In this document: piece after piece, positions 39,470-52,925 of the stretch
Layout: each line of letters starts with the position of its first letter
How positions within the stretch are numbered: the first letter of the stretch is position 1
Source of the DNA: Alphaproteobacteria bacterium
GTDB taxonomy: Bacteria; Pseudomonadota; Alphaproteobacteria; Oceanibaculales; Oceanibaculaceae
Reading direction: 5' to 3'
Length of the DNA: 64,000 nucleotides
NCBI GenBank assembly: GCA_018823745.1
Contig: JAHJHR010000017.1
Coordinates: 124,001 to 188,000 of the forward strand
Program-made: the position numbers and the translations under genes
Notes under the pieces: model-generated
Database searches by the model: none
Seen by the model: only the letters and a program-made list of their open reading frames with translations
Told to the model about the DNA's origin: nothing

Positions 39470-40720
39470 ATGACCGCTGCCCCTACTCCCGACCAGGCTC
39501 CCTGCAAGACGGGGGCGCTGGCCGGCATCCGGGTTCTCGACCTGACCTCCGTCATTCTTGGCCCTTATGCAACGCAGATACTGGGCGATCACGGGGCCGA
39601 CATCATCAAGGTGGAAGCGCCCGAGGGCGATGTGCTGCGCGGCACCGGCCCGGCCCGCAATCCCGGCATGGGGGCGATCTTCCTGAACAGCAACCGCAAC
39701 AAGCGCAGCCTGGTGCTCGACCTGAAGCAGCCGGCGGCGCGCGACGCCCTGCTGCGGCTGGTGGCCGGGGCCGATGTCTTCGTCCACAGCCTGCGGCCCA
39801 AGGCGATTGCCCGACTGGGCTTCGACTATGCCGCCGTCCGGGCCGCCAACCCGTCCATCATCTATTGCTCGGCCTGGGGGTTTGGCAGCGGCGGCCCCTA
39901 TGCCGACCGCCCGGCCTATGACGACATCATCCAGGCCATGTCCGGCGTCGCCGATCTGGCACGCCGCCAGAGCGGCACTCCCGAGCCGGCCTATGCGCCC
40001 ACCGTCCTGGCCGACAAGACCGTGGGCCAGAGCGTCGCCAATGCCCTGCTGGCCGCCCTGCTGCACCGGGAGCGCACCGGACGCGGCCAGGAGGTCGAGG
40101 TGCCGATGTTCGAGAATTTGAGCGCCTTCATGCTGCTGGAGCATCTGGCCGGCGCGGTGTTCATGCCCGAACCGGGCGAGGCCGAGGGCGAGATGGGCTA
40201 TCAGCGCCTGCTGGCACCGCATCGCCGGCCCTATCGCACCAGCGACGGCTTCGTCACCGTGCTGCCCTATACGACGAAGCAATGGCGCAGCTTCTTCCTG
40301 CTGGCCGGCCAACCGGAGATGGCCGAGGATTCCCGCATCACCGATCCCGGCCTGCGCAGCCGGTCGATTGGCGATCTCTACGGGCTGATCGCCGACCTCA
40401 TGCCCGCGCGCAGCACGGCCGACTGGCTGGCAGCACTGGAGGAAGCCGATATTCCGGCCGCCCGGGTGAACAGCCTGGAAGACATGCTGGACGACCCGCA
40501 TCTGCAGGCGACCGGCTTCTTCCAGGAAATGGCGCATCCCAGCGAAGGCCGGCTGCGGGCACTGGCCCCGGCGTCGCGCCTGTCCGACAGCCCGCAGGCC
40601 ATACACTGCGGCGCGCCGCGCCTGGGCGAGCATTCCCGCGAGATACTGGCGGAAGGCGGTTTCAGCTCGTCCGAGATTGACGGGCTGATCGCCAGCGGCG
40701 CGTCAGTCCAGGCCGGATAG
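39470..40720 (+). CDS. CaiB/BaiF family III CoA-transferase
   Basis: The 416-residue protein has the family start LAGIRVLDLTSVILGPYATQ, IIKVEAPEGD, and the catalytic Asp in LADKTVGQS. It moves CoA between two carboxylic acids through an aspartyl-CoA anhydride. ATG 39470 has AGGAAGGA about 10 bp upstream; an in-frame ATG at 39437 is possible. The frame is open much further upstream but there it is antisense to the FAD-oxidase gene. The 3' end overlaps the convergent E1 gene by 18 bp. Confidence 0.93.
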   Translation: MTAAPTPDQAPCKTGALAGIRVLDLTSVILGPYATQILGDHGADIIKVEAPEGDVLRGTGPARNPGMGAIFLNSNRNKRSLVLDLKQPAARDALLRLVAGADVFVHSLRPKAIARLGFDYAAVRAANPSIIYCSAWGFGSGGPYADRPAYDDIIQAMSGVADLARRQSGTPEPAYAPTVLADKTVGQSVANALLAALLHRERTGRGQEVEVPMFENLSAFMLLEHLAGAVFMPEPGEAEGEMGYQRLLAPHRRPYRTSDGFVTVLPYTTKQWRSFFLLAGQPEMAEDSRITDPGLRSRSIGDLYGLIADLMPARSTADWLAALEEADIPAARVNSLEDMLDDPHLQATGFFQEMAHPSEGRLRALAPASRLSDSPQAIHCGAPRLGEHSREILAEGGFSSSEIDGLIASGASVQAG

Positions 40721-43258
40721 GGCAGCATCCAGCACGGCCTTGCGCTCCGCCTCATGCCCGTATTTCAGGCCGGTGGCCGGGCTGGGCACGGCCGGGCGGC
40801 TGACACAGCGCAGGGTGCGGCCGGACAGAGCCTCCAGCGGACGGTCGAGATGGGTGAAATAGCCCATATTCGCCGGCTCCTCCTGGCACCAGACCAGATC
40901 GGCCCCGGCATGGGCGGCGAATAACGCGCGCAACCCCTCTTCGGGAAGCGGGTAAAGCTGCTCGATCCGGGCCAGTGCCACCTGTGATTCCAGCCCCCGC
41001 GCGGCCCGCTCGGCAGCCAGCTCGTAATAGATCTTGCCGGTGCACAGGATCAGGCGCTGTGCCTTCTGTGCAGCGCTATCCGGGATCAGCGGCTGAAAGC
41101 CGGTGCCCGGGCCAAATTCCGCCAGCGCCGAGACACAGGCCTTCTGGCGCAGCAGCGCCTTGGGTGTCAGCACGACCAGAGGCTTGCGGAAATCGCGCCG
41201 CATCTGCCGGCGCAGCAGATGGAAGAAATTGGCCGGCGTCGAGACATTGGCGATCTGGATATTGCCCTGCGCGCAGGCGGCCAGCAGCCGTTCGGGATGG
41301 CCAGTGGAATGATCCGGCCCGCCGCCATCCAGCCCGTGCGGCAGCAGGATGGTCAGGCCCGATGAGCGCAACCAGCGATCCTCGCCGCCGGCGACGAACT
41401 GATCGAAGATGGCCTGGGCAATGTTCAGGAAATCACCGAACTGCGCCTCCCAGACGATCAGGCGGCGCGGATCGGTCAGGCTGCAGCCATATTCATAGGC
41501 CAGCACGGCATATTCGATCAGCGGGGTATTGAACACCTCGCACAGCGCACCGCCCTGTTGCGCCAGCGGGTCGAGCACGCAATGCCGCTTCTCGCTGGCG
41601 CTGTCATGGATGAACAGATGCCGCTGGGTAAAGGCCCCGCGCAGCGAATCCTGCCCGCCAAAGCGCAGCGGCGTGCCCTCGGCCAGCAGGCTGGCGAAGC
41701 CCATTGCCTCGCCGGTTGCCCAGTCAATCCCTTGCCCGGTCTCAATACTCTCGCGGCGCTGGTCAAGGAAGCGCGCCACCTTGCGGTCCAGGGTGAAACC
41801 GTCCGGCGCTGTGGTCAGGGACCGGCCGATGGCCTTCAGCGTGTCGATGGGCAGGCCGGTCTCGGTGAAGGCGAGCATATCGGCAGCACTGCCGCTTCGG
41901 AAACCCTGCCAGATTCCATGAAACGACCCGGCATCATTGACCTCGAAGCCAGCAGCGCCATCGAAGGCGGCCTTTACGGCCGCCGTCATATCTGCCGCCG
42001 CCTGCTCGCCTGGCGCGGTATCGACGCCGCGCTGCGCCAGGCTGGCCTGATACAGCGCGGCCAGAGGCGGGCGCTCGTCGATGGCCCGATACATCGCCGG
42101 CTGGGTGAAGCGCGGCTCGTCAATCTCGTTATGGCCGTGCCGGCGGTAGCAGACGATATCCAGCAGGATGTCGCTGCCGAACCGCGTCCGGTAGGCGGCG
42201 GCGACGCTGGCGGCATGGTACAGCGCCTCGACATCATCGCCATTCACATGCAGCACCGGGGCCTCGACCAGCTTGGCGATATCGGTGCAGTAGCGCGCCG
42301 AGCGGCCCTCCTCCGGCAGCGTCGTGAAGCCGAGCTGGTTGTTGATGATGACATGGATCGTGCCGCCCAGATCGAAGGGGGCAACCTTCGACAGCTGGAA
42401 CAGCTCCGCCACGATGCCCTGCCCGGCAAAGCTGGCATCGGTATGCAGCAGCAGCGGCAGGACCTGGCGCTTGCCATCTTCGCCCCGAAGCGCCTGCTTG
42501 CCGCGCGTGCGGCCCTGCGCAACCACGCCGATCACCTGCAGATGCGAGGGATGCGGCGAGACGGTGAGGCGCAGGCGCTTGCCGTCGATCTCGCGCTCAC
42601 CGGAATAGCCCAGATGATAGGGCACATCGCTGGAGGCCTGCATGCCCTGCGGCAGCGGCGATTTGCCGGTAATCTCGGCAATCAGCGGCACCAGCGGCTT
42701 TTCCAGCAGCACGGCGAGCAGCGCGAACCGGCCGCGATGCATGCCGCCCATCACCACCTCCTCCACCCCGGCGCGGAGGCTGGCGCGGAAGATCGTCTCC
42801 ACCGCCACCAGGAAACCGTCGCCGCCGGCCAGACCGAACAGCTTCGCGCCGGGCAGCCGGCCCTGCAGCGTTTCCTCGAAGGCCTGCCCGCGCTTCAGCA
42901 GCGCCAGCAGGTCGCGCTGGATCCTGGAATCCGGCGCTGCCGGTGCCTCCGCCTGGGCCTGCAGCCAGTCGCGCCGGGCGCGGTCATGGATATACGAGAA
43001 CTCCCATCCGATGGAGCCGCCATAGACCGCCCGCAGGGCCGCTTCCGAGCCCGGTGGCAGCCCGTAAAAGGCGGGGTCCAGCTCTGCCACCCGAGCAGGC
43101 GAAGCGCGCCCCAGCGGGTCCAGGCGAGCTTCCAGATGGCCGCGATGCCGCCAGGCTTCCGCCAGCAACGCCATGGCGCTGTCCACGCCACCGGCCGAAG
43201 GCGCTGCGCCGCCTTGCTCCATCTCCTGCGCGAAACGGCGGGCGATATCGCGGGGCAC
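40703..43258 (-). CDS. 2-oxoacid dehydrogenase E1 component, OGDH/SucA family, stand-alone
   Basis: The protein shows the thiamine-diphosphate E1 blocks of the 2-oxoglutarate dehydrogenase family: GSIGWEFSYI, EEVVMGGMHRGR, SSDVPYHLGYSGER, HPSHLQVIG, HTDASFAGQGIVAE, YRRHGHNEIDEP and EAQFGDF. At 851 residues it is shorter than usual SucA (about 930-990). Homology continues upstream in frame without an ATG, GTG or TTG: 43342-43259 encodes DDGFLGAGDPGALDALYRRF, the typical E2-contacting N-terminus. An ATT at 43342 with GGGGAGG 5 bp upstream may be the real start. No E2 or E3 gene is nearby. It could be SucA or a 2-oxoadipate (DHTKD1-like) paralogue. Confidence 0.88.
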   Translation of the reverse strand: MPRDIARRFAQEMEQGGAAPSAGGVDSAMALLAEAWRHRGHLEARLDPLGRASPARVAELDPAFYGLPPGSEAALRAVYGGSIGWEFSYIHDRARRDWLQAQAEAPAAPDSRIQRDLLALLKRGQAFEETLQGRLPGAKLFGLAGGDGFLVAVETIFRASLRAGVEEVVMGGMHRGRFALLAVLLEKPLVPLIAEITGKSPLPQGMQASSDVPYHLGYSGEREIDGKRLRLTVSPHPSHLQVIGVVAQGRTRGKQALRGEDGKRQVLPLLLHTDASFAGQGIVAELFQLSKVAPFDLGGTIHVIINNQLGFTTLPEEGRSARYCTDIAKLVEAPVLHVNGDDVEALYHAASVAAAYRTRFGSDILLDIVCYRRHGHNEIDEPRFTQPAMYRAIDERPPLAALYQASLAQRGVDTAPGEQAAADMTAAVKAAFDGAAGFEVNDAGSFHGIWQGFRSGSAADMLAFTETGLPIDTLKAIGRSLTTAPDGFTLDRKVARFLDQRRESIETGQGIDWATGEAMGFASLLAEGTPLRFGGQDSLRGAFTQRHLFIHDSASEKRHCVLDPLAQQGGALCEVFNTPLIEYAVLAYEYGCSLTDPRRLIVWEAQFGDFLNIAQAIFDQFVAGGEDRWLRSSGLTILLPHGLDGGGPDHSTGHPERLLAACAQGNIQIANVSTPANFFHLLRRQMRRDFRKPLVVLTPKALLRQKACVSALAEFGPGTGFQPLIPDSAAQKAQRLILCTGKIYYELAAERAARGLESQVALARIEQLYPLPEEGLRALFAAHAGADLVWCQEEPANMGYFTHLDRPLEALSGRTLRCVSRPAVPSPATGLKYGHEAERKAVLDAALSGLD

Positions 43259-43458: not shown

Positions 43459-44679
43459 ATGCAGAACCAAGCCCCCTTGAGCCATATCCGCGTGCTCGAT
43501 CTGTCGCGCGTGCTGGCCGGCCCCTGGGCAACCCAGTTCCTCGCCGATATGGGGGCCTATGTGATCAAGGTGGAACGGCCGGGCGAAGGCGACGACACAC
43601 GCGGCTGGGGCCCGCCCTATCTGGTGGAGCCGGGCGCGGACGGCCCCGGCCTGTCGGCCTATTTCCTGGCCTGCAATCGCGGCAAGCGCTCCATCGAGGT
43701 CGACATGGCCACGCCCGAGGGGCAGGAAATCATCCGCCGGCTGGCCGCCGAATGCGATGTCGTGGTGGAGAATTACAAGGTCGGCGGTCTGGCCCGTTAC
43801 GGCCTCGATTACGCCAGCCTGAAACCGGTGAATCCGAAGCTGATCTGGTGTTCGATCACCGGTTTCGGCCAGACCGGCCCCTATGCGAAGCGCGCCGGCT
43901 ATGACTTCCTGATCCAGGCGATGAGCGGGCTGATGAGTGTCACCGGCAAGCCGGATGGCGAGCCGGGGGCCGAGCCGATGAAGGTCGGTGTCGCCATTTC
44001 CGACCAGATCTGCGGCCTGTATTCCCTCTCCGCCATCCTGACCGCGCTGATCAAACGCGACCGCACCGGCGAGGGCGAGCAGATCGACATGGCGCTGCTC
44101 GACACGCAGATCGCCACCATGGCCAATCAGGCGACCAACTACCTCGTCTCCGGCGTGGCGCCGACGCGCATGGGCAATGCGCATCCCAATGTGGTGCCCT
44201 ATCAGGTCTTCCCGACCGCCGATGGCCATATGATCCTGGGAATCGGCAATGACGGCCAGTTCGCCCGGTTTTGCGCTGTGGTCGGGGCCGAGCATCTGTC
44301 GGGCGACCCGTTGTACCGGACCAATGCAGCGCGCATCGTGAATCGCGAAACCCTGATCCCGCAGATTGCCGCCATCGTGCTGACGCGCGGCACGAATGAC
44401 TGGATCGGGTTGCTGGAAAACCACGCCGTGCCCTGCGGCCCGATCAACGATCTGGCGCAGGTCTTCGCCGACCCGCAGGTCGCGGCGCGCGGCCTGAAGC
44501 GCGTGCTGCACAGCCCGGCGGCCGCGCAAGTGCCGCAGGTCGGCAACCCGGTGAAATTCGCCAGCGGCCCGACCACCAGCGACCGCGCACCGGCCCTCCT
44601 CGGCGCCGATACCGCAGAGGTGCTGCGCGACGTGCTGGGCATGGACGAGGCTGAGATTGCAGAGTTGCGACGGCGCTAG
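43459..44679 (+). CDS. CaiB/BaiF family III CoA-transferase, second copy
   Basis: This 406-residue CoA-transferase has IRVLDLSRVLAGPWATQ at the start, YVIKVERPGEGDDTR, and the catalytic Asp in VAISDQICGLYS. The sequence CNRGKRSIEVD and LIWCSITGFGQTGPY place it near succinyl-CoA:glutarate (SUGCT-like) or formyl-CoA type enzymes. It is divergent from the E1 gene. It differs clearly from the copy at 39470-40720, so the two probably use different acids. Confidence 0.93.
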   Translation: MQNQAPLSHIRVLDLSRVLAGPWATQFLADMGAYVIKVERPGEGDDTRGWGPPYLVEPGADGPGLSAYFLACNRGKRSIEVDMATPEGQEIIRRLAAECDVVVENYKVGGLARYGLDYASLKPVNPKLIWCSITGFGQTGPYAKRAGYDFLIQAMSGLMSVTGKPDGEPGAEPMKVGVAISDQICGLYSLSAILTALIKRDRTGEGEQIDMALLDTQIATMANQATNYLVSGVAPTRMGNAHPNVVPYQVFPTADGHMILGIGNDGQFARFCAVVGAEHLSGDPLYRTNAARIVNRETLIPQIAAIVLTRGTNDWIGLLENHAVPCGPINDLAQVFADPQVAARGLKRVLHSPAAAQVPQVGNPVKFASGPTTSDRAPALLGADTAEVLRDVLGMDEAEIAELRRR

Positions 44680-44700
44680 AGGCACTCGCCGCCCCCTCAG

Positions 44701-44803
44701 TCCGTCACCCCCGGTCTTGTACCGGGGGTCCATGGTTCCGCTTACTGGATGTCGGTCGAGTAGGCTGGACCCTGGATTCCCGGGACAAGCCCGGGAATGA
44801 CGG
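44701..44803. repeat. Head-to-head pair of REP-like palindromes
   Basis: Two related units lie in opposite orientation: 44702-44734 with inner hairpin CCCCGGT-CTTGT-ACCGGGG, and 44771-44803 with inner hairpin TTCCCGGG-ACAAG-CCCGGGAA. The reverse complement of the second matches the first closely (both carry CCGTCA...TTGT...CC). The pair resembles a bacterial interspersed mosaic element and sits after the CoA-transferase gene, where it may also end transcription. Confidence 0.8.
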
Positions 44804-44825
44804 TCTTAGATAGTCTCCCCCTACA

Positions 44826-44878
44826 TTGACCACCGGGGGGCATATCCGTAGAATTGCGGATACTGACTAATAAGTCAG
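44826..44878 (+). promoter_or_regulatory. Sigma70 promoter with 16-bp operator for the lyase-cupin-AspDH operon
   Basis: TTGACC (44826-44831) and TAGAAT (44849-44854) are 17 bp apart. Directly downstream, over the expected transcription start, lies the dyad CTGACTAATAAGTCAG (44863-44878). Closely related 16-mers occur at 49749-49764 and 52884-52899. A repressor on this site would block initiation. Confidence 0.78.
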
Positions 44879-44907: not shown

Positions 44908-45342
44908 GTGGCAAAGTTCCTGTTCCTGCAGGGCGCGAATATGGAGTTCCTGGGCATTCGCGAGCCGGAGAAATACGGCAAGACCACGGCTGCCGAACTG
45001 GACCAGATCGTGCGCGACTATGCCGCCAAAAAAGGCTTCGAGGTCGATATCTACTACACCAATGTCGAAGGCCATGCGATCGACAGGCTGTTCGACGCGC
45101 ACCGGCAGGATTATGACGGGGTGGTGATGAATCCGGGCGGCTTCTGCTATGCCGGTTATGCCCTGCGCGACTGCATCCGCGGCATCAAGGTGCCGGTCAT
45201 CGAGGTGCATATGACCAATCACTACGACCGCGGCATTCACTCGATCAGCGCGCAGGCCTGCAAGGGCGTGTTCATGGGCGTTGGCATCCAGACCTATCTG
45301 CGCGCCTTCGACGCGCTGCTGGAGATGGTCGAGACCCGGTAA
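44908..45342 (+). CDS. Type II 3-dehydroquinate dehydratase-like lyase with altered substrate pocket
   Basis: The 144-residue protein has the flavodoxin-like fold of type II dehydroquinase. Catalytic residues align: Asn11, Arg18 and Tyr23 (GIREPEKYG), Asn75 (MNPGG), Glu99 and His101 (VIEVHMTN), Arg108. The His that normally follows at about position 81 (GGxTH) is Tyr81, and the second Arg of the lid region (FRxxS) is absent, with two residues deleted. It probably eliminates water from a related cyclic hydroxy-ketone rather than from dehydroquinate. GTG 44908 has AGGGAG 6 bp upstream; ATG 44902 lies too close to that site. Confidence 0.85.
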   Translation: MAKFLFLQGANMEFLGIREPEKYGKTTAAELDQIVRDYAAKKGFEVDIYYTNVEGHAIDRLFDAHRQDYDGVVMNPGGFCYAGYALRDCIRGIKVPVIEVHMTNHYDRGIHSISAQACKGVFMGVGIQTYLRAFDALLEMVETR

Positions 45343-45384
45343 AATACCTATCTAGTATCTGTACAGTCAGCGAAGGAGAGCGCC

Positions 45385-45888
45385 ATGGAAGCGGCACAGA
45401 AGAAAGACGAAAAGGGCTATGCGGTCGTCGTCCATTCGGATGAGGGCCCCAGCTGGTGGCAGCCGGTGCCGGCCAATGGCTATGGCGAGGTGAAATTCTC
45501 CCAGCGCAATATTCCCGGCCTGCCCTTCTCGACCGGCGTCCAGGTGATCGCGCCGGGTGGCTTCATCCGCGACCACCAGCATCCCGACCACAAGGAGGTG
45601 CTGTTCTTCTACGAGGGTGAGGGCATGCTGGAGCTGGATGGCGAACCCCATCCAATCAAGCCGGGCACAACGGTCTATCTGGGCGCCTTCCGCCGGCACA
45701 AGATCATGAATACCGGCACGAAGGACATGAAGATGTTCTGGACCATCATGCCCGGCGGGCTGGATATCTTCTTCGAGGAGATCGGCCGCCCGCGCACACC
45801 GGGCGAGCCCGCACCGGAGCCCTTCGCCCGGCCGGAGGATGTCGAGAAGATCGAGATGGACACAATCTTCGCCCCGATCAAAGCGTGA
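45385..45888 (+). CDS. Cupin-domain protein
   Basis: The 167-residue protein is a single cupin barrel. Motif 1 gives metal ligands His64, His66 and Glu71 (DHQHPDHKEVLFF), and motif 2 gives His105 (GAFRRHKIMNTG). It could be an isomerase, dioxygenase or sugar-acid-type enzyme; the sequence does not decide. It lies 42 bp after the lyase gene and overlaps the next gene by 4 bp, so it belongs to the same operon. Confidence 0.87.
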   Translation: MEAAQKKDEKGYAVVVHSDEGPSWWQPVPANGYGEVKFSQRNIPGLPFSTGVQVIAPGGFIRDHQHPDHKEVLFFYEGEGMLELDGEPHPIKPGTTVYLGAFRRHKIMNTGTKDMKMFWTIMPGGLDIFFEEIGRPRTPGEPAPEPFARPEDVEKIEMDTIFAPIKA

Positions 45889-46673
45889 GCCTGCGCATCG
45901 GCCTGATCGGCTATGGCGCCATCGGCAAGGCGCTGGCCGCACGGCTGGCCGCCGATCCCGAGGCGCCGCAGATTGTCGCCATACTGGTCCGGTCCGGCCG
46001 CACCGACACCACGGACGCCCCGCTGGTGGACGATGTCGCCGCCCTGCTGGAAGCCAGGCCCGCTCTGGTCGTGGAATGCGCCGGCCAGCAGGCGGCGGCG
46101 CAGTTTGGCCCGGATGTGCTGGCAGCCGGTATCGATCTGGTCGTCGCCTCGGTTGGCGCGCTGGCCGATCCGGCGACCGAGGCAAGCCTGAAACAGGCCG
46201 CTGCCACCGGCGGATCGCGCATTATCGTTCCGGCCGGTGCCGTTGCTGCGGTGGATGGGCTGGCCGCCGCCCGCCTCGCCGGCCTCTCGTCGGTGACCTA
46301 TACCTCACGCAAGCCGCCACTGGCCTGGCGCGGCACCCATGCCGAAACGCTGGTTGATCTCGACCGGCTGACGGAAGAGACCGTGCTGTATGAGGGCACT
46401 GCGCGGGAAGCATCCCGCCTGTTCCCGAAGAACGCCAATGTCGCCACCACCGTGGCGCTGGCCGGGATCGGCTTTGAGGCGACGCAATGCCGTATCGTTG
46501 CCGACCCCCATGCCGCCGGCAATTGCCACGAGGTCGATGCCCAGGGCGCCTTCGGCACGCTCTCCCTGCGGCTGCAGAACGCCCCCTCGCCCGACAATCC
46601 CAAGACCTCGTTCCTTACCGTGCTCAGCCTGGAACGTCTGGTGCGCAACAGCGCGGCCGCTTTGGTGATCTGA
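45885..46673 (+). CDS. Aspartate-dehydrogenase-like NAD(P) oxidoreductase (NadX family)
   Basis: This 262-residue protein matches the L-aspartate dehydrogenase family: N-terminal Rossmann fold GLIGYGAIGKALA (about 5-17), GAVAAVDGLAAA, and the C-terminal signature KNANVATTVALAG with the catalytic-site segment NCHEVDAQGAFG. The family makes or oxidises an amino acid at a keto/imino carbon. The GTG start overlaps the cupin stop (GTGA). In this operon it may act on a catabolic keto acid or amine rather than serve NAD synthesis, as no nadA or nadC is near. Confidence 0.88.
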   Translation: MSLRIGLIGYGAIGKALAARLAADPEAPQIVAILVRSGRTDTTDAPLVDDVAALLEARPALVVECAGQQAAAQFGPDVLAAGIDLVVASVGALADPATEASLKQAAATGGSRIIVPAGAVAAVDGLAAARLAGLSSVTYTSRKPPLAWRGTHAETLVDLDRLTEETVLYEGTAREASRLFPKNANVATTVALAGIGFEATQCRIVADPHAAGNCHEVDAQGAFGTLSLRLQNAPSPDNPKTSFLTVLSLERLVRNSAAALVI

Positions 46674-46684
46674 GCGGCCTGCCG

Positions 46685-48010
46685 CTATTGCATCCCATAT
46701 ATCTGCTTCGGCAGCCAGGTCGCCAATTCCGGGAACAGGAAGACCAGGCACAGGGTCAGCACCTGCATGATGATGAAGGGAATCACCCCCTTATACATAT
46801 GCATCAGCGTGATGCTGGGCGGGGCGATGGCCCGCAGGTAGAAGATCGCCGGCGCCATGGGCGGCGTCAGATAGCTGGTCTGCAGGATCACCAGGAACAG
46901 CACCGAGAACCACAGCGGGTCGATGCCGTAGAGCTTGACCAGCGGAATGGCGATCGGGATGACGATCAGCACGATGGAAATCAGTTCCAGCACGAAGCCG
47001 GCCAGAAAAGTCAGCAGCAGGATCAGGCCGATGGCCGGCCAGCCGGCCAGTCCGTATTCCGCCAGCAGCTTCTGGATCGCCACCATGCCGCCCGAGGCAT
47101 AGAAGACGCCCGCGAACATGCTGCCGCCCAGCACGATCAGCATGATCATCGCGGTGATCGACAGGGTGCGGTACAGCGCCTCCTTCAGCATGGTCCAGTT
47201 GAACTGGCCATAGATGAAGCACAGCAGGATGCTGCCGCAGGCGCCGGTGGCGGCGGCCTCGGTCGGCGTCGCCCAGCCCAGCAGGATGGTGCCCAGCACC
47301 GCAAAGATGAGAAACACCGGCGGCAGCAGGGCGACGCCGGTGATGCGCAGTTTCTGGCCCAGCGATATCTCGTCTTCCGGCCGGATGTCCTCGCGCGGGG
47401 CCAGCGCCGGGTTCAGAAAGCACACGCCGATGATATAGCCGATGAACAACACCGACATGATCAGGCCGGGAAACATGATGCCGGCGAACAGATCGCCGAC
47501 CGGAATATCGGCGACCGGCGCCAGCACGACCACGGTGATAGAGGGCGGAATGATGGTGCCCAGCGACCCGCCGGCGCAGATCGTGCCGGAGATCAGCCGC
47601 TTGTCATAGGCGTATTTCATCATCGCCGGGATCGCCAGCATGCCGACCACGGTTTCGGTCGCCCCGGTAATGCCGGTCGCGGCGGCGAACACTGTGCACA
47701 TCAGGACCGTACCTATGGCGAGACCGCCCGGTAGCCGCCGTGTCCACAGATAGATCGCGTCAAACAGCTTGCTGGCGATGCCGGAACGCTCCAGCAGCGC
47801 GCCCATGAACACGAAAAGCGGGATGGCGCCCAGAATATAGTTCGAGGCGACGTCATCCACCTTGGAGATGAACTGGAAGACCGCCGCATCGCCGAAGCGC
47901 AGCACGCCGAAGATCAGCGCCACGCTCATCAGCGAAAAGGCGATGGGAATGCCGATGGCGACGAAAACCAGCAGCGCCGGAAACATCCAGAGAGCGAGAG
48001 CCGTACCCAT
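46685..48010 (-). CDS. TRAP transporter large permease (DctM)
   Basis: The 441-residue protein has about 12 membrane segments and DctM family blocks (TGATETVVGMLAIPAM, GGSLGTIIPPSI, TPTEAAATGACGS, MAPAIFYLRAIAPPSITL). With the small permease it imports a carboxylate with Na+. Its start is 3 bp after the DctQ stop. It is the last gene of the leftward catabolic operon and ends 11 bp from the convergent aspartate-dehydrogenase-like gene. Confidence 0.96.
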   Translation of the reverse strand: MGTALALWMFPALLVFVAIGIPIAFSLMSVALIFGVLRFGDAAVFQFISKVDDVASNYILGAIPLFVFMGALLERSGIASKLFDAIYLWTRRLPGGLAIGTVLMCTVFAAATGITGATETVVGMLAIPAMMKYAYDKRLISGTICAGGSLGTIIPPSITVVVLAPVADIPVGDLFAGIMFPGLIMSVLFIGYIIGVCFLNPALAPREDIRPEDEISLGQKLRITGVALLPPVFLIFAVLGTILLGWATPTEAAATGACGSILLCFIYGQFNWTMLKEALYRTLSITAMIMLIVLGGSMFAGVFYASGGMVAIQKLLAEYGLAGWPAIGLILLLTFLAGFVLELISIVLIVIPIAIPLVKLYGIDPLWFSVLFLVILQTSYLTPPMAPAIFYLRAIAPPSITLMHMYKGVIPFIIMQVLTLCLVFLFPELATWLPKQIYGMQ

Positions 48011-48013
48011 CGG

Positions 48014-48520
48014 TCAGATTTCCGTCGCGTCGTTGGTGAAAAGCGCGATCCAGTTCTTCGCGAACTCGATCAGCACCTGAAGAAGGAAGACCAGAAACCC
48101 GATCGTCAGCACCACCCGGTAGGGCCAGATCTGCGGATTCCAGGCCGATTGCCCGGAAAGCTCGCCGCCGGTATAGGCGCGCAGCGTGTAACCCCACAGG
48201 GCATAGGTCAGCCAGGCGACGCAGGGGATGAAAACGCAATAGCCGAGGATATTAACCGCGGCCTTGGCGCGCGGTCCGAGGGCACCGTGGATCAGGTCGA
48301 CGGTCACATGCTGGCGGACCTTCAGCGCATAAGCCATGCCCAGCACGAAGATGGCCCCCATCATCATATAGCCCAGCTCATAGGCCCAGAAGGTCGGCGC
48401 GGAGAAGATGTACCGGCTCAACACCTCGTACACCATGCCCAGGATCAGCGGCACGATGATCAGGATGCCGATAAAGGCCGCGACATCGGTCACGACTTCC
48501 AGCCTGCGCAGAAAACGCAT
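48014..48520 (-). CDS. TRAP transporter small permease (DctQ)
   Basis: The 168-residue protein has four membrane helices, including a DctQ-type second helix region (FSAPTFWAYELGYMMMGAIF) followed by KVRQHVTVDLI, a conserved block of the family. It forms the complex with the DctM protein encoded 3 bp downstream. A hairpin lies between it and the binding-protein gene. Confidence 0.94.
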   Translation of the reverse strand: MRFLRRLEVVTDVAAFIGILIIVPLILGMVYEVLSRYIFSAPTFWAYELGYMMMGAIFVLGMAYALKVRQHVTVDLIHGALGPRAKAAVNILGYCVFIPCVAWLTYALWGYTLRAYTGGELSGQSAWNPQIWPYRVVLTIGFLVFLLQVLIEFAKNWIALFTNDATEI

Positions 48521-48558
48521 GGATACCCCCGGCTAGCGGTGGACAGGCACAGGGAAAA

Positions 48559-48583
48559 GGGGCGGCCTGATACTGGCCGCCCC
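48559..48583 (-). terminator. Intercistronic hairpin after the DctP gene
   Basis: A perfect 9-bp stem (GGGGCGGCC, 48559-48567 with 48575-48583) with a 7-nt loop is followed on the minus strand by TTTTCCC. It lies 14 bp after the binding-protein stop and looks like a partial terminator that favours binding-protein expression over the permeases. Confidence 0.8.
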
Positions 48584-48596
48584 GCTTCCGGCTTGC

Positions 48597-49676
48597 TTAC
48601 TGCGCGGCGCCGATCGGCAGGCGGAATTTCTGCCAATCCTTCACCGAAGCCTGGAAGGCCCGCTGATGCTCATAGGCCTTCTTGAACCAGGGGTTTGCAG
48701 CAGACTGCTTGTCAGCCCAGGCGAAGGAGGCCTTGCGGGCCGCTTCGAGGAAGCTGCTGTCCAGCTCGACGAATTCATTGCCGCCCTGGGACTTCAGGAA
48801 GGCATAGCCCTCAATATCGTCCTTGGCATAGCCGAGGAAGGTCTCGTAGGTCGTCATCCGGCCGGCCAGCTCGACCAGCTTCTTGTCCTTCTCGGACAGC
48901 TTGGCCCAGGCATTCTTGTTGAACATGCATTCATGCGCGCCCGATGGCTGATGGATGCCCGGCGTGATGATGTATTTCGCGATCTTGTGGAAACCGGCCG
49001 ACATGTTGATGCCGGGGCCGCCCCATTCGATGCCGTCCACCACCTTGCGCTCCAGTGCGGGGAACACTTCCGAACCGGCCATCACGACGGTGGAGGCCCC
49101 CAGCTCTGTCGCGATCTCGGCCCAGGCGCCGGAGGTGCGCACCTTCATGCCCTTATAGTCCTCCAGCGTGCGCACCGGCTTGTGCGCATGCATGAAGATT
49201 TCCGTTTCCAGAATGCCGCAGGGCACGATGACAACGTCGGAGACTTCCTGACGCCACTGCTTCCACAGCTCCGCCCCGCCGTAATTATACATCCACAGCA
49301 TGTATTCTTCCGGGGTCAGGCCGCCCGACCAGCCGCCGAAGATGACGCCGGTGCGGTCGATGCCCCAATCATAGGCCGGCCAGTTATGACCAACCTCGGC
49401 AATGCCGCTCTGCACGGTTTCGGTAACCTTCAGCGCGCTGCCCAGCGTGCCGGCCGGGAAAACGTTGATCTTCACCCGACCGTCGGTCATCTGCCCGACC
49501 AGCTCTGCGAAGCGCTTGGCGCCGATATCGATCCAGTGGCCGCCGGCCCATGGCGTCGCCATGCTCCATTCAACGGGCTTGGTATCTTGCGCTGCAGCAG
49601 GATTTGCAGCGGTCAGTGCCGTGCCACAGGCCAGAGCCGTAGCGAAGGCAAGAGTACGGAATGTCTTGAGAATCAT
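48597..49676 (-). CDS. DctP-family TRAP solute-binding protein
   Basis: The 359-residue protein has a signal peptide (about 1-27, ANPAAAQ). DctP family features include the ligand Arg region in KGMKVRTSGAWAEIATELGA and VVDGIEWGGPGINMSAGFHKIAKYI. This DctP subgroup binds carboxylates such as mandelate-like, keto or cyclic acids. ATG 49676 is used because GGGGG lies 7 bp upstream; a GTG at 49703 is less likely. A 16-bp operator lies 73 bp upstream of the start, so it can be induced separately from the genes before it. Confidence 0.95.
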   Translation of the reverse strand: MILKTFRTLAFATALACGTALTAANPAAAQDTKPVEWSMATPWAGGHWIDIGAKRFAELVGQMTDGRVKINVFPAGTLGSALKVTETVQSGIAEVGHNWPAYDWGIDRTGVIFGGWSGGLTPEEYMLWMYNYGGAELWKQWRQEVSDVVIVPCGILETEIFMHAHKPVRTLEDYKGMKVRTSGAWAEIATELGASTVVMAGSEVFPALERKVVDGIEWGGPGINMSAGFHKIAKYIITPGIHQPSGAHECMFNKNAWAKLSEKDKKLVELAGRMTTYETFLGYAKDDIEGYAFLKSQGGNEFVELDSSFLEAARKASFAWADKQSAANPWFKKAYEHQRAFQASVKDWQKFRLPIGAAQ

Positions 49677-49748
49677 GTTAACCCCCAGATTGTTGAAGAT
49701 CACCCTGTGCTCGCTTTTTTGTGCATCAGCGAATTACGGATAGCGTAA

Positions 49749-49764
49749 CTAACTTGTAAGTCAG
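49749..49764 (-). promoter_or_regulatory. 16-bp operator upstream of the TRAP genes
   Basis: CTAACTTGTAAGTCAG on the plus strand, or CTGACTTACAAGTTAG in the direction of the TRAP genes. It agrees with the dyads at 44863 and 52884 at 12-13 of 16 positions and shares the CTGACTTA octamer. It lies in the 107-bp gap before the binding-protein gene. I could not place a convincing promoter around it. Confidence 0.7.
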
Positions 49765-49783
49765 ACGTCCAGCTTTTGTGTGC

Positions 49784-50557
49784 CTAGCTGGTGGTCCACA
49801 TGCCGCCGGTGATGTTGATACCCTGGCCGGTCATGTAGTCGGATTCATCGGAAGCCAGGAAAGCGACAATGCGGGCCACGTCGCCCGGCAGCCCGGCCCG
49901 GCCCATCGGGATGGTGCTGACCCGGTCCTTCGCCATCGGCAGGCCCTGGGCCTTGTGCTGGGCTTCTGAATCGACGCGCATCTGGGTGTCGACGATCAGA
50001 CCGGGGCAGACCGAGTTCACCGCAATGCCGTGCGGCGCCATTTCCAGCGCCAGCGCCTGAGTAATGGCAATGACGGAGAATTTCGTCGCGCAATAGGCGC
50101 TGTAATTGGCCAGCGCCTTCTTGCCCATCCAGGACGCCATGTTGATGACCTTGCCCTGCTTGCGCGCCACCATATGCGGCAGCACGGCACGGCAGCTGTG
50201 GAACACGCCGTCGACATTCACGCCGAAGCTGTCATGCCACGCTGCCTCATCCATCTCCAGCAGCGGGCCAAGGCGCAGGATGCCGGCACAGTTGATCAGG
50301 ATGTCGACATGGCCCAGCTGCTTTACCAGTTCGCCGCAGCCTTTCTTCACATCCTCGGCCTTGGAGACGTCGCCCGTCGCGACATAGGCCTTGCGGCCCT
50401 TGGCCCGGATCAGCGCGGCGGTTTCCTCGGCCTGCTCGGCCTGGCGGTCGAAAATGGCGATATCGCAGCCTTCATCGGCCAGGCGCAGTACGCTGGCCTT
50501 GCCGATGCCGCCCGCGCCGCCGGTGATAAGCACGGTCCGTCCGGTTAGATTATACAT
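49784..50557 (-). CDS. SDR oxidoreductase (classical)
   Basis: The 257-residue classical SDR has cofactor site TGGAGGIGK (12-20), Asp37 favouring NAD, NCAG (89-92), and catalytic Ser142, Tyr155 and Lys159 (YCATK). The C-terminal block GQGINITGGMWTTS is typical of FabG-like dehydrogenases. It probably oxidises a ring or side-chain hydroxyl. It is 12 bp after the flavin dehydrogenase gene, in the same operon. Confidence 0.93.
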   Translation of the reverse strand: MYNLTGRTVLITGGAGGIGKASVLRLADEGCDIAIFDRQAEQAEETAALIRAKGRKAYVATGDVSKAEDVKKGCGELVKQLGHVDILINCAGILRLGPLLEMDEAAWHDSFGVNVDGVFHSCRAVLPHMVARKQGKVINMASWMGKKALANYSAYCATKFSVIAITQALALEMAPHGIAVNSVCPGLIVDTQMRVDSEAQHKAQGLPMAKDRVSTIPMGRAGLPGDVARIVAFLASDESDYMTGQGINITGGMWTTS

Positions 50558-50569
50558 TCTGTGGTTTCC

Positions 50570-52066
50570 TCACTGTGAATCGGCAATAGCGTTGAAGGCG
50601 GCATTGCGGCCGGCGATGCGACCGGAAGCAAAGGCCCAGCCGAGATGATGGCCATGCCCTTCCAGCAGCAACCCGCCCTGCCCGGCCGAGCCGGCGGCAT
50701 AGAGCCCCGGAATGGGCGTTTGTGATTTATCAACGACCTGCATGTCTTCGTTGATGGTCAGGCCGCCCTCGGTAAAGACGATCCAGGGCTTTGCCGGGCC
50801 GAGGGCGACATAAGGCCCCGCCCCCAAGGCCGGGCGTTCCCCGCGCTCGCCGGCATTGTAGGTCTCGACGGATTGCTTCAGTGCTTCGGCAGGAACGCCA
50901 ATCTTCGCCGCCAGCCCGTCCAGCGTATCGGCCTTGAAGCAGATGTCGCGGCGGTTGCGTTCGTAATCCGGCAGATAGGCATAGGCCACGCCGGGCGCCG
51001 TGGAGACGAAATGCGGCCAGTCGGTGAATTTCGCCGCCGTCGCGCTGTCCAGCAGGATATAGGCGACATGGTCGGGCTGCTGCGTCATGGCGTAATGCGG
51101 CTGGTCCTGCTCGTTGCAGAAGCGCTCGCCCCGCTTGTTGACCAGGATGCCGCCCTCCCGGAACAGCCCGTGCGACGGGGCCAGATAGGTGGTGACGAAG
51201 GACATCAGAAATGGCCGCAATACCGATTGCGGCAGCAGCCCCATCATCGCCTTCACCAGCCGCGCGAAACCCGTGACCGGCGGCAGCCTGGTGATGAAGC
51301 TGGCGGTCGGCGGGGCAACGAAGCGGATCTCCGGTCCCCAGGCGATATCGCCGTTCACGACACTCCCGCCGACCGCCTCGCCCATCTTCTGGCCATCACC
51401 GGTGCTGGTCGTGTTGATCGCCGCGATGCCGCTCATTTCCGGCGGCAAATGGCGGCTGCGGTATTCCTCCGGGGCGGCGCTGATGTCACCGGACGCCAGG
51501 ACCACGCCGCGCCGGGCGCTGATCAGCTCCGGTCCAACCGGCCCGTCAATCTCCACCCCGATTGCCCGGCCGGCCTCCATGACGATCCGCCGTGCCGGGC
51601 TGGAGGTGCGGATATCCACCCCCTCCTTCCGGCAGGCCTTCGACAGCAGATAGATATAGGCCCCGGAATGCGGCAGCACCTGATGCAGGCGCGGCACGCG
51701 GTGCGGCGGCTCCGGCACCGGGTTCATGAAGACAAGGCCCAGATCGCTCAGAAACCGCATGGTTTCCGGCATGGTGTCGACCAGGATACGGCGCAGGGCC
51801 GGGTTATCCCGGTTGGCGAGGCGGCTGCCGTGGAATTTCGGCATATCCTCAAAATGCGCGTCCGGCGTGTCCTCGATGCCTGCCGCGCGCTGCTGCCTGG
51901 TGGCGCTGGCGGAAATCGAACCGACCGACATGCCGGACGTCCCGCCCAGCTTCGGATTCTTCTCCAGCAGCACGACAGAGCGGCCCAGCCGGGCGGCGGA
52001 CAGGGCCGTCATCAGCCCGGCGCCACCGCCGCCAATCACGACCACATCCGTTACGGTGCGGCGCAT
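50570..52066 (-). CDS. FAD-dependent dehydrogenase of the fumarate reductase / ketosteroid dehydrogenase class
   Basis: The 498-residue flavoprotein has the N-terminal FAD site VVVIGGGGAGLMTALSAARLG (dinucleotide glycines at 12-17) and a C-terminal FAD block PGLYAAGSAGQGGLLLEGHG. The middle resembles flavocytochrome c and 3-ketosteroid delta-1-dehydrogenases, enzymes that introduce or reduce a C=C next to a carbonyl. No signal peptide is seen, so it is cytoplasmic. Placed between two SDR genes it fits desaturation of a cyclic keto acid made by an SDR; the substrate is not known. Confidence 0.9.
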   Translation of the reverse strand: MRRTVTDVVVIGGGGAGLMTALSAARLGRSVVLLEKNPKLGGTSGMSVGSISASATRQQRAAGIEDTPDAHFEDMPKFHGSRLANRDNPALRRILVDTMPETMRFLSDLGLVFMNPVPEPPHRVPRLHQVLPHSGAYIYLLSKACRKEGVDIRTSSPARRIVMEAGRAIGVEIDGPVGPELISARRGVVLASGDISAAPEEYRSRHLPPEMSGIAAINTTSTGDGQKMGEAVGGSVVNGDIAWGPEIRFVAPPTASFITRLPPVTGFARLVKAMMGLLPQSVLRPFLMSFVTTYLAPSHGLFREGGILVNKRGERFCNEQDQPHYAMTQQPDHVAYILLDSATAAKFTDWPHFVSTAPGVAYAYLPDYERNRRDICFKADTLDGLAAKIGVPAEALKQSVETYNAGERGERPALGAGPYVALGPAKPWIVFTEGGLTINEDMQVVDKSQTPIPGLYAAGSAGQGGLLLEGHGHHLGWAFASGRIAGRNAAFNAIADSQ

Positions 52067-52078
52067 GCCCGGATATCC

Positions 52079-52840
52079 TTACTTCGCAGTCCAGCCGCCA
52101 TCGACCATCAGCACCGAGCCTGTGCAGAACGAGCTTTCATCGCTGGCCAGGAACAGGATGCCATTGGCAATTTCCTGCGGCTTGCCCAGCCGGTTCATCG
52201 CCTGGCGCGCTTCCAGCCCCTTGCGCAGGGCGGCGGCGTCATTGCTCTTGCGGAAAATCTCGTCGAAATAGGGTGATTCGATCGTGCCGGGGGCAACGCA
52301 ATTGATGCGGATATTGGCCTCGACATGATCCAGCGCCATTGCCCGGCTCATCGCCGCAACCGCCCCCTTGGAGGCGCAATAGGCGGCCCGGTCCCGGATA
52401 CCGACCTTGGAGACGGTGGAGGCGGTGTTGACAATGGTGCCGCCGCCCTGCTTCTCCATGATCGGGATGGCATATTTGCACCCGAAGAACACGCCATTGA
52501 CGTTCACCGCCATCAGCGCGTCCCAATCGTCCTCCGTGGTGTTCACCACGGTGCCGGCAATGCCATAGCCGGCATTGTTGACCAGGATGTCCAGCCGACC
52601 CTTGCGCCCGGCAACGCCCTCGATCATCGCGCGCACCGAGGCGGATTTCGCGACATCCACCTCGACCGCCTCACCCGCACCGCCCGCCTTGACCAGTTCC
52701 GCGCAGACAGCCTCTGCTGCCGCCAGATTCTTGTCGGCGACGACGACATAGGCGCCCTCGCGCGCAAAGGTCAGACAGGTGGCATGGCCGATACCCGAGC
52801 CGCCGCCGGTGACAATGGCGATCTTGTCCTGCAAACGCAC
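52079..52840 (-). CDS. SDR oxidoreductase (classical, FabG-like)
   Basis: The 253-residue SDR has TGGGSGIGH (11-19), Asp36 favouring NAD, NNAG (88-91), and the catalytic triad Ser141/Tyr154/Lys158 (YCASK). It is the first gene of the leftward catabolic operon, directly behind a promoter with the shared operator. The start is GTG, preceded by GGAGGGGG at good spacing. It is 12 bp ahead of the flavin dehydrogenase gene. Confidence 0.94.
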   Translation of the reverse strand: MRLQDKIAIVTGGGSGIGHATCLTFAREGAYVVVADKNLAAAEAVCAELVKAGGAGEAVEVDVAKSASVRAMIEGVAGRKGRLDILVNNAGYGIAGTVVNTTEDDWDALMAVNVNGVFFGCKYAIPIMEKQGGGTIVNTASTVSKVGIRDRAAYCASKGAVAAMSRAMALDHVEANIRINCVAPGTIESPYFDEIFRKSNDAAALRKGLEARQAMNRLGKPQEIANGILFLASDESSFCTGSVLMVDGGWTAK

Positions 52841-52883: not shown

Positions 52884-52925
52884 CTGACTTAAGTGTCAGC
52901 TTATAAGCAGGCTGAGTAGTGTCAA
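52884..52925 (-). promoter_or_regulatory. Promoter and 16-bp operator of the leftward catabolic operon
   Basis: On the minus strand a perfect TTGACA (52925-52920) is followed 16 bp later by TAAGCT (52903-52898), a fair -10. The dyad CTGACTTAAGTGTCAG (52884-52899) covers the -10 edge and start point. It shares the CTGACTTA octamer with the sites at 44863 and 49749. Confidence 0.7.

Follow-up and report, generated by a model that had tools for sequence, protein, structure and literature searches.

We found that the gene at 44908-45342 of the window (the 64,000-nucleotide stretch of DNA analysed here) encodes a paralogue of the type II dehydroquinase AroQ, and belongs to a clade in which the active-site residue Arg112 is lost throughout. 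On balance we favor the reading that this DHQ-like protein has kept the type II dehydroquinase type of reaction on another substrate, within a catabolic regulon that would be controlled by a repressor; the sequence itself shows the homology, predicted fold, residue pattern, monophyly, coexistence with AroQ, gene module and shared palindromes, and from these we infer the reaction, the substrate class and the regulator. To our knowledge, only one reaction has been characterized for the type II dehydroquinase fold, on a single substrate and a close amino analogue of it. A clade that retains the catalytic residues and has lost Arg112 would be a test case for the conversion of a biosynthetic enzyme to catabolism. 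In addition, the label dehydroquinate dehydratase may be wrong for many genes in public records, a concern both for metabolic models and when the correct copy has to be picked as a drug target. Also new here are a nine-gene module (44908-52840) and a CTGAC-N6-GTCAG palindrome before its three transcription units, a putative shared operator that offers an experimental handle, since the substrate should be traceable from whatever induces the regulon.

A dehydroquinase fold beside a canonical AroQ

The frame and coordinates first assigned to the gene were right, and the frame encodes a 144-amino acid protein. GTG 44908 is the better start, given its spacing to GGGAG and the GTG start of the copy in O. 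pacificum; the protein used in our analysis (P0002) begins at the in-frame ATG 44902. Pfam DHquinase_II (PF01220) matches the protein with 128.4 bits (E 2e-37; gathering score 23.3), its predicted model has a mean pLDDT of 94.1, and the 50 Foldseek matches listed for that model are type II dehydroquinases, one of them a designed particle on that fold, with TM-scores to the query of 0.79-0.90. The dehydroquinase fold recognized in the original prediction is thus borne out, and the profile score over the gathering score, together with the same fold, places the protein in the type II dehydroquinase homologous superfamily. Its scores are nevertheless below all five NCBIfam aroQ cut-offs, and for the TIGR01088 equivalog reach 119.3 bits against a cut-off of 169.85.

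The original prediction suggested looking for a second, canonical aroQ, and the window gene is indeed not the only aroQ-like gene of its genome, because a separate canonical aroQ is present on contig 1 (209.3 bits, compared with 128 for the window protein). By eye, this gene directly precedes a biotin carboxyl carrier gene; a search of the window genome for a type I dehydroquinase found none. The window protein and its own genome's AroQ share 32% identity (46/145 aligned columns). From a pattern-based scan of public genomes for relatives we took 80 of 119, and searched the whole genomes behind 39 loci. A separate canonical copy, at 187 bits or more, accompanies the DHQ-like member in 37 of these 39 genomes; the two without one, L095 and L068, are metagenome bins. 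Reyranella was considered as proof of a housekeeping role and rejected, since the named Reyranella genomes searched also carry the canonical copy.

Loss of the C5-hydroxyl side of the active site

Residues are numbered as in the M. tuberculosis enzyme, for which our AroQ reference sequence is identical to PDB 3n76 over 147/147 residues. In the excerpts of PMC6011038 used here, Tyr24 is the base and His101 the acid, and Arg19 is essential. Asn75, the 102-103 backbone and the residue 103 side chain hold the dehydroquinate carboxylate; the C4 hydroxyl is bound by Asp88 from the next subunit, and the C5 hydroxyl contacts His81 and Arg112. Arg108 and Arg112 are proposed to lower the pKa of Tyr24, and Pro11 is reported to bind, together with Asn12 and Gly78, a structural water at the ketone (PMC6011038, same excerpts). 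A survey of 750 sequences and 17 active-site residues, as excerpted from PMC10772564, found that only G77, G78, T80, I102, S103 and P105 vary, which leaves Arg112 outside the varying positions reported.

Like type II AroQ (PF01220, TIGR01088), the window protein has the fold, the carboxylate pocket and the whole catalytic set of Asn12, Arg19, Tyr24, Asp88, Glu99 and His101 (M. tuberculosis numbering). In the numbering of the original prediction, the protein carries Asn11, Arg18, Tyr23, Asn75, Tyr81, Glu99, His101 and Arg108, and each of the seven residues that had been aligned with type II dehydroquinases, all but Tyr81, was found as claimed. It differs from type II AroQ in having Tyr for His81, Ala for Pro11 and Gly for Ser83, in lacking Arg112, so that the residue pair for the C5 hydroxyl is missing, and in a lid that, after Arg108, is three residues shorter than that of M. 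tuberculosis AroQ. The loss of the lid Arg112 had been seen before, but the deletion had been put at two residues; the His101-to-Ser115 span is 12 residues in the window protein versus 15 in 30/30 canonical rows, which makes it three.

A sister clade without Arg112

We compared 85 members (the window protein, 80 scan loci and four plasmid loci), a set in which Reyranella is over-represented and L033 and L058 are identical, with 29 canonical controls (the genome's own AroQ and 28 of the class). Arg112 is found in none of the 85 members and in all 29 controls. Asn12, Arg19, Tyr24, Asn75, Glu99 and His101 are conserved in every member, Asp88 in 84 and Arg108 in 80, and Pro11, invariant in the controls, is replaced by Ala in 84 of the 85; conservation near position 11 is inflated in these counts, as the patterns used to fetch members include part of the motif. 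Ser83, also invariant in the controls, is replaced in 85/85, with Gly marking the window protein and the clade against AroQ. Given the residue roles in the excerpts of PMC6011038 and PMC10772564, the carboxylate pocket and the residues for the chemistry are kept in the clade, and the C5 side is lost.

Position 81 holds His in 45 members, Tyr in 38, Phe in one and Asp in one, and its His/Tyr state switches at least eight times on the tree. The substitution of the substrate-contacting His by Tyr was correctly read in the window protein, but it cannot bear the weight first placed on it: the position varies inside the clade and is not diagnostic, and we rejected it as the key change. The fixed loss of the clade is Arg112, not His81.

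In a tree that comprises 82 members and 30 canonical rows, the two sets separate with support of 100/100. The same division appears in a search of 289 genomes of the class with the clade profile, whose hits are independent of the member-fetching patterns: the scores are two-peaked, the window's place being one of nine at 201-227 bits, with a gap down to 139 bits after them. Among solved structures none scored above 134.3 bits with this profile, and so no solved structure appears to belong to the clade. Members occur in Proteobacteria and in a few further phyla under the database label aroQ, and differ from type II AroQ in forming a separate clade, in having His or Tyr at 81, in scoring below curated cut-offs and in not lying beside shikimate genes. 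We found no description of this clade in the papers searched, and no relative of the protein in viral contigs.

Gene neighbors vary widely between sub-clades. The glutamate synthase genes gltB-gltD lie upstream of the DHQ-like gene in 35/84 relatives' loci, a Cupriavidus plasmid locus has DUF4286 and SDR genes as neighbors, and Roseobacteraceae loci have a TPP enzyme, a cupin and NAD(P)-dependent oxidoreductases. Because of this variety, including gltB-gltD, the clade may have several functions, and quite possibly acts on more than one substrate. Among Reyranella and its near relatives (L062, L072, L096 and 32 more), the gene is of the His81 form and often begins 5 to 180 bases after gltD.

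A nine-gene module in three transcription units

The DHQ-like gene heads a three-gene unit with a cupin gene and an aspartate-dehydrogenase-like (NadX) gene, and has its own promoter-like site. This unit, a TRAP transporter unit and an SDR2-FAD2-SDR1 unit together make up the module (Table 1). The description of the locus as a catabolic operon with an inducible-looking promoter and no shikimate genes holds.

Table 1. Features of the DHQ-like locus, in window coordinates
Feature	Coordinates	Strand	Evidence
Sigma-70-like promoter TTGACC-17-TAGAAT before DHQ-like gene	44826..44854	+	10/12 positions; shuffles mean 0.1
Palindrome TATCCG-N8-CGGATA over -10 site	44843..44862	.	no second exact copy in window
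Operator-like palindrome CTGACTAATAAGTCAG, site 1, before DHQ-like unit	44863..44878	.	genome motif scan
DHQ-like protein, AroQ paralogue of clade without Arg112	44908..45342	+	homology, residue pattern, tree
Cupin_2 protein; end overlaps next gene by 4 bases	45385..45888	+	profile match
NadX / aspartate-dehydrogenase-like protein	45885..46673	+	profile match
TRAP transporter large permease (DctM)	46685..48010	-	profile match
TRAP transporter small permease (DctQ)	48014..48520	-	profile match
TRAP transporter solute-binding protein (DctP)	48597..49703	-	profile match
Operator-like palindrome, site 2, before TRAP unit	49749..49764	.	genome motif scan
SDR1, short-chain dehydrogenase	49784..50557	-	profile match
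FAD2, FAD_binding_2 dehydrogenase (flavocytochrome c / ketosteroid dehydrogenase type)	50570..52066	-	profile match
SDR2, short-chain dehydrogenase	52079..52840	-	profile match
Operator-like palindrome, site 3, before SDR2-FAD2-SDR1	52884..52899	.	genome motif scan

In O. pacificum (G002), all nine genes follow a CoA-transferase/E1 pair, with 82-97% identity. The same pair, a CoA-transferase and a 2-oxoglutarate-dehydrogenase-E1-like gene, adjoins in the congeners G001 and G003 as it does in the window, and there none of the nine genes was found within the 16 to 17 kb fetched after it; the module is absent as a block at this site. The upstream CoA-transferase (43459-44679) was therefore rejected as an operon partner and lies outside the module, since it stays in G001 and G003 where the nine genes are absent. 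Genome-wide, G001 and G003 lack close copies of NadX (43%) and have the cupin elsewhere (82-84%), without a DHQ-like gene; genes of the module can thus occur apart from one another. In the fetched flanks of the 84 relatives' loci, NadX occurs only once, in that of O. pacificum.

The E1-like gene of the pair, a second one of its kind (40703-43258, minus strand), adjoins the plus-strand CoA-transferase gene in all four Oceanibaculum genomes. This CoA-transferase is nearest to succinate-glutarate CoA-transferase (530 bits versus a cut-off of 750), and the pair is perhaps a 2-oxoadipate/glutarate branch.

A palindrome shared by the three units

Allowing at most one mismatch, CTGACT-N4-AGTCAG has four sites in the whole 3.97-Mb genome, compared with two for the reversed control, and three of the four are at 44863, 49749 and 52884, one per module unit. 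Letter shuffling of the three upstream stretches (459 bases) gave no hit in all three in any of 2000 shuffles. Three sites in the window alone with up to two mismatches are not rare (12/100 shuffles), and the weight of the palindromes lies in their positions and in the genome-wide count. Contig 145 of O. pacificum has exactly three sites, at matching positions, with the arms kept and the centers changed, and the promoter region of the DHQ-like gene is conserved there as well.

The more general form CTGAC-N6-GTCAG occurs exactly twice in the 1.25 Mb of the 83 other relatives' loci (reversed control, once). Both loci, L040 and L041, are among the nearest relatives and have homologues of module genes (FAD2, 57%, in L040; SDR2, 62%, SDR1, 50%, and cupin, 47%, in L041). 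This form also precedes the cupin gene in G001 and G003. Two GC-rich inverted repeats of extragenic type, which are not kept in O. pacificum, fill part of the gap from the CoA-transferase to the DHQ-like promoter (44700-44810).

The fourth site in the genome is on contig 11 (232322), at the 5´ end of an ABC importer (binding-protein) gene; it may be due to chance, because it falls within the signal-peptide codons. The cluster there has the ABC importer, MaoC, CoA-transferase and alpha/beta hydrolase genes, which resemble genes beside DHQ-like genes elsewhere (MaoC 67% and CoA-transferase 64% to L040, hydrolase 57% to L041, binding protein 56% to L038). It also has a TetR gene, with a two-mismatch site about 130 bases before it, whose product is 59% identical (118/199) to the TetR of L041. 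The L041 gene is divergent from SDR2, and the palindrome lies in between. This TetR gene is the candidate for the regulator that would act via CTGAC-N6-GTCAG. The LacI of the contig-11 cluster was also considered as the regulator; operators of LacI proteins, however, usually have a central CG, which is absent from the palindrome sites. Strict co-occurrence of the module and the contig-11 locus was rejected, as the hydrolase pattern among congeners is the reverse of that of the DHQ-like module: an orthologue is present in G000, G001 and G003 (81-82% for G001 and G003) but not in G002 (best 44%).

M81 metallopeptidase (MlrC-like) genes were seen near the contig-11 cluster (L198:13667-15250) and near the G001 cupin (L173:12109-13581), with a further one annotated close to a FAD2 homologue of Azospirillum.

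A probable hydro-lyase for another substrate, and alternatives

The DHQ-like protein is probably a hydro-lyase acting on another beta-hydroxy-keto carboxylate, one that probably lacks the C5 hydroxyl of dehydroquinate. The new substrate for the fold put forward in the original prediction is thus partly supported, by the second aroQ, the catabolic setting and the loss of the C5-hydroxyl contacts. In our model, the substrate carboxylate would be bound by Asn75, the backbone of 102-103 and Thr103 (M. tuberculosis numbering). The tyrosinate at Tyr24 in the lid, prepared by Arg19 and by Asp88 of the neighboring subunit, would take the proton next to the ketone to give an enolate, and His101/Glu99 would protonate the beta-hydroxyl such that water leaves. 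The loss of Arg112 and the shorter lid could fit a substrate without the C5 hydroxyl, or with another group at that place. The TRAP transporter would provide uptake, after which the two SDRs and the FAD dehydrogenase could make ketones and double bonds on a hydroxylated, probably alicyclic, carboxylic acid. Induction of the regulon would follow from the release of CTGAC-N6-GTCAG by a repressor, probably a TetR-family protein.

The least secure element of this explanation is that the substrate is a ring, which we put forward tentatively. An alicyclic acid is suggested because the SDR-FAD-SDR partners resemble the enzymes of cyclohexanecarboxylate desaturation, in which a ring alcohol is oxidized (ChcB2) and the ring is then desaturated (ChcC1, ChcC2). 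The matches of SDR2 to ChcB2 (194.8 bits) and of FAD2 to ChcC1 (97.9) and ChcC2 (118.7) are far below the cut-offs of 350, 1000 and 900, respectively, and both families are broad, so that the resemblance may be taken as an analogy only. The most specific form of the proposal, in which the clade is a distinct hydro-lyase family with the dehydroquinase fold and other substrates, and in Oceanibaculum forms part of an undescribed, TetR-controlled two-locus pathway for a hydroxylated alicyclic acid, has, in our view, somewhat less than even odds.

A variant that overlaps with our preferred explanation has an open-chain tertiary hydroxy-keto acid, for example 4-carboxy-4-hydroxy-2-oxoadipate, as the substrate. 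By chemical reasoning this compound shares the COOH-C(OH)-CH2-C=O pattern, and in the Corynebacterium enzyme citrate occupies the active site, its carboxyl and hydroxyl placed like those of dehydroquinate (excerpts of PMC10772564). The SDR and FAD partners in the window suggest ring oxidation, however, and the C4-hydroxyl contact Asp88 is present in nearly all members, and we regard an open chain as unlikely. It is similarly improbable that the fold is kept and dehydration is not, with enolate chemistry serving isomerization, ring hydrolysis or hydration in another pathway. The replacement of Pro11, the structural-water contact in the PMC6011038 excerpts, and of Ser83, the shorter lid and the varied gene clusters around clade members would all agree with such a change, but the residues that protonate the leaving hydroxyl, His101 and Glu99, have been retained without exception.

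Quinate-pathway dehydroquinases act on dehydroquinate and are encoded beside quinate dehydrogenase and dehydroshikimate dehydratase genes. These catabolic enzymes of fungi and bacteria are like the window protein in having a dehydroquinase fold used in breakdown and in being inducible; the window locus differs in that those two partner genes are not in its annotations, nor were they among the genes scanned around the DHQ-like gene. A second, true dehydroquinase isozyme that has a relaxed active site and serves to break down quinate or shikimate is the least probable reading and quite improbable: the catalytic residues and carboxylate pocket are all kept, His81 persists in about half of the members, and a PQQ membrane dehydrogenase of the glucose/quinate type elsewhere in the window genome (1090 bits) could make dehydroquinate, but a canonical copy is already in the genome, the surrounding annotated genes include none of the known quinate pathway, and the Arg112 that every control has, and that is not among the positions varying in the 750 sequences (PMC10772564, in the part cited), is missing throughout the clade.

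We also looked for the substrate in the genome context, reading the neighbors of the closest relatives, plasmid records and cupin regions, and no single known pathway fits. The recurring neighbors are SDR2, FAD2, SDR1, cupin, alpha/beta hydrolase, ECH, MaoC, CoA-transferases, and DHDPS-like and proline-racemase-like genes. Part of this set also occurs where there is no DHQ-like gene. The cupin clusters of L175, L182 and L185 have a DHDPS-family gene, MaoC, CoA-transferase III, ECH and sugar-type ABC importers, and this recurring set is an undescribed pathway set. On a Shinella plasmid (L160:6188-11872), proline-racemase-like, GMC oxidoreductase, cupin, alpha/beta hydrolase, NadX-like and SDR2-like genes lie in a row.
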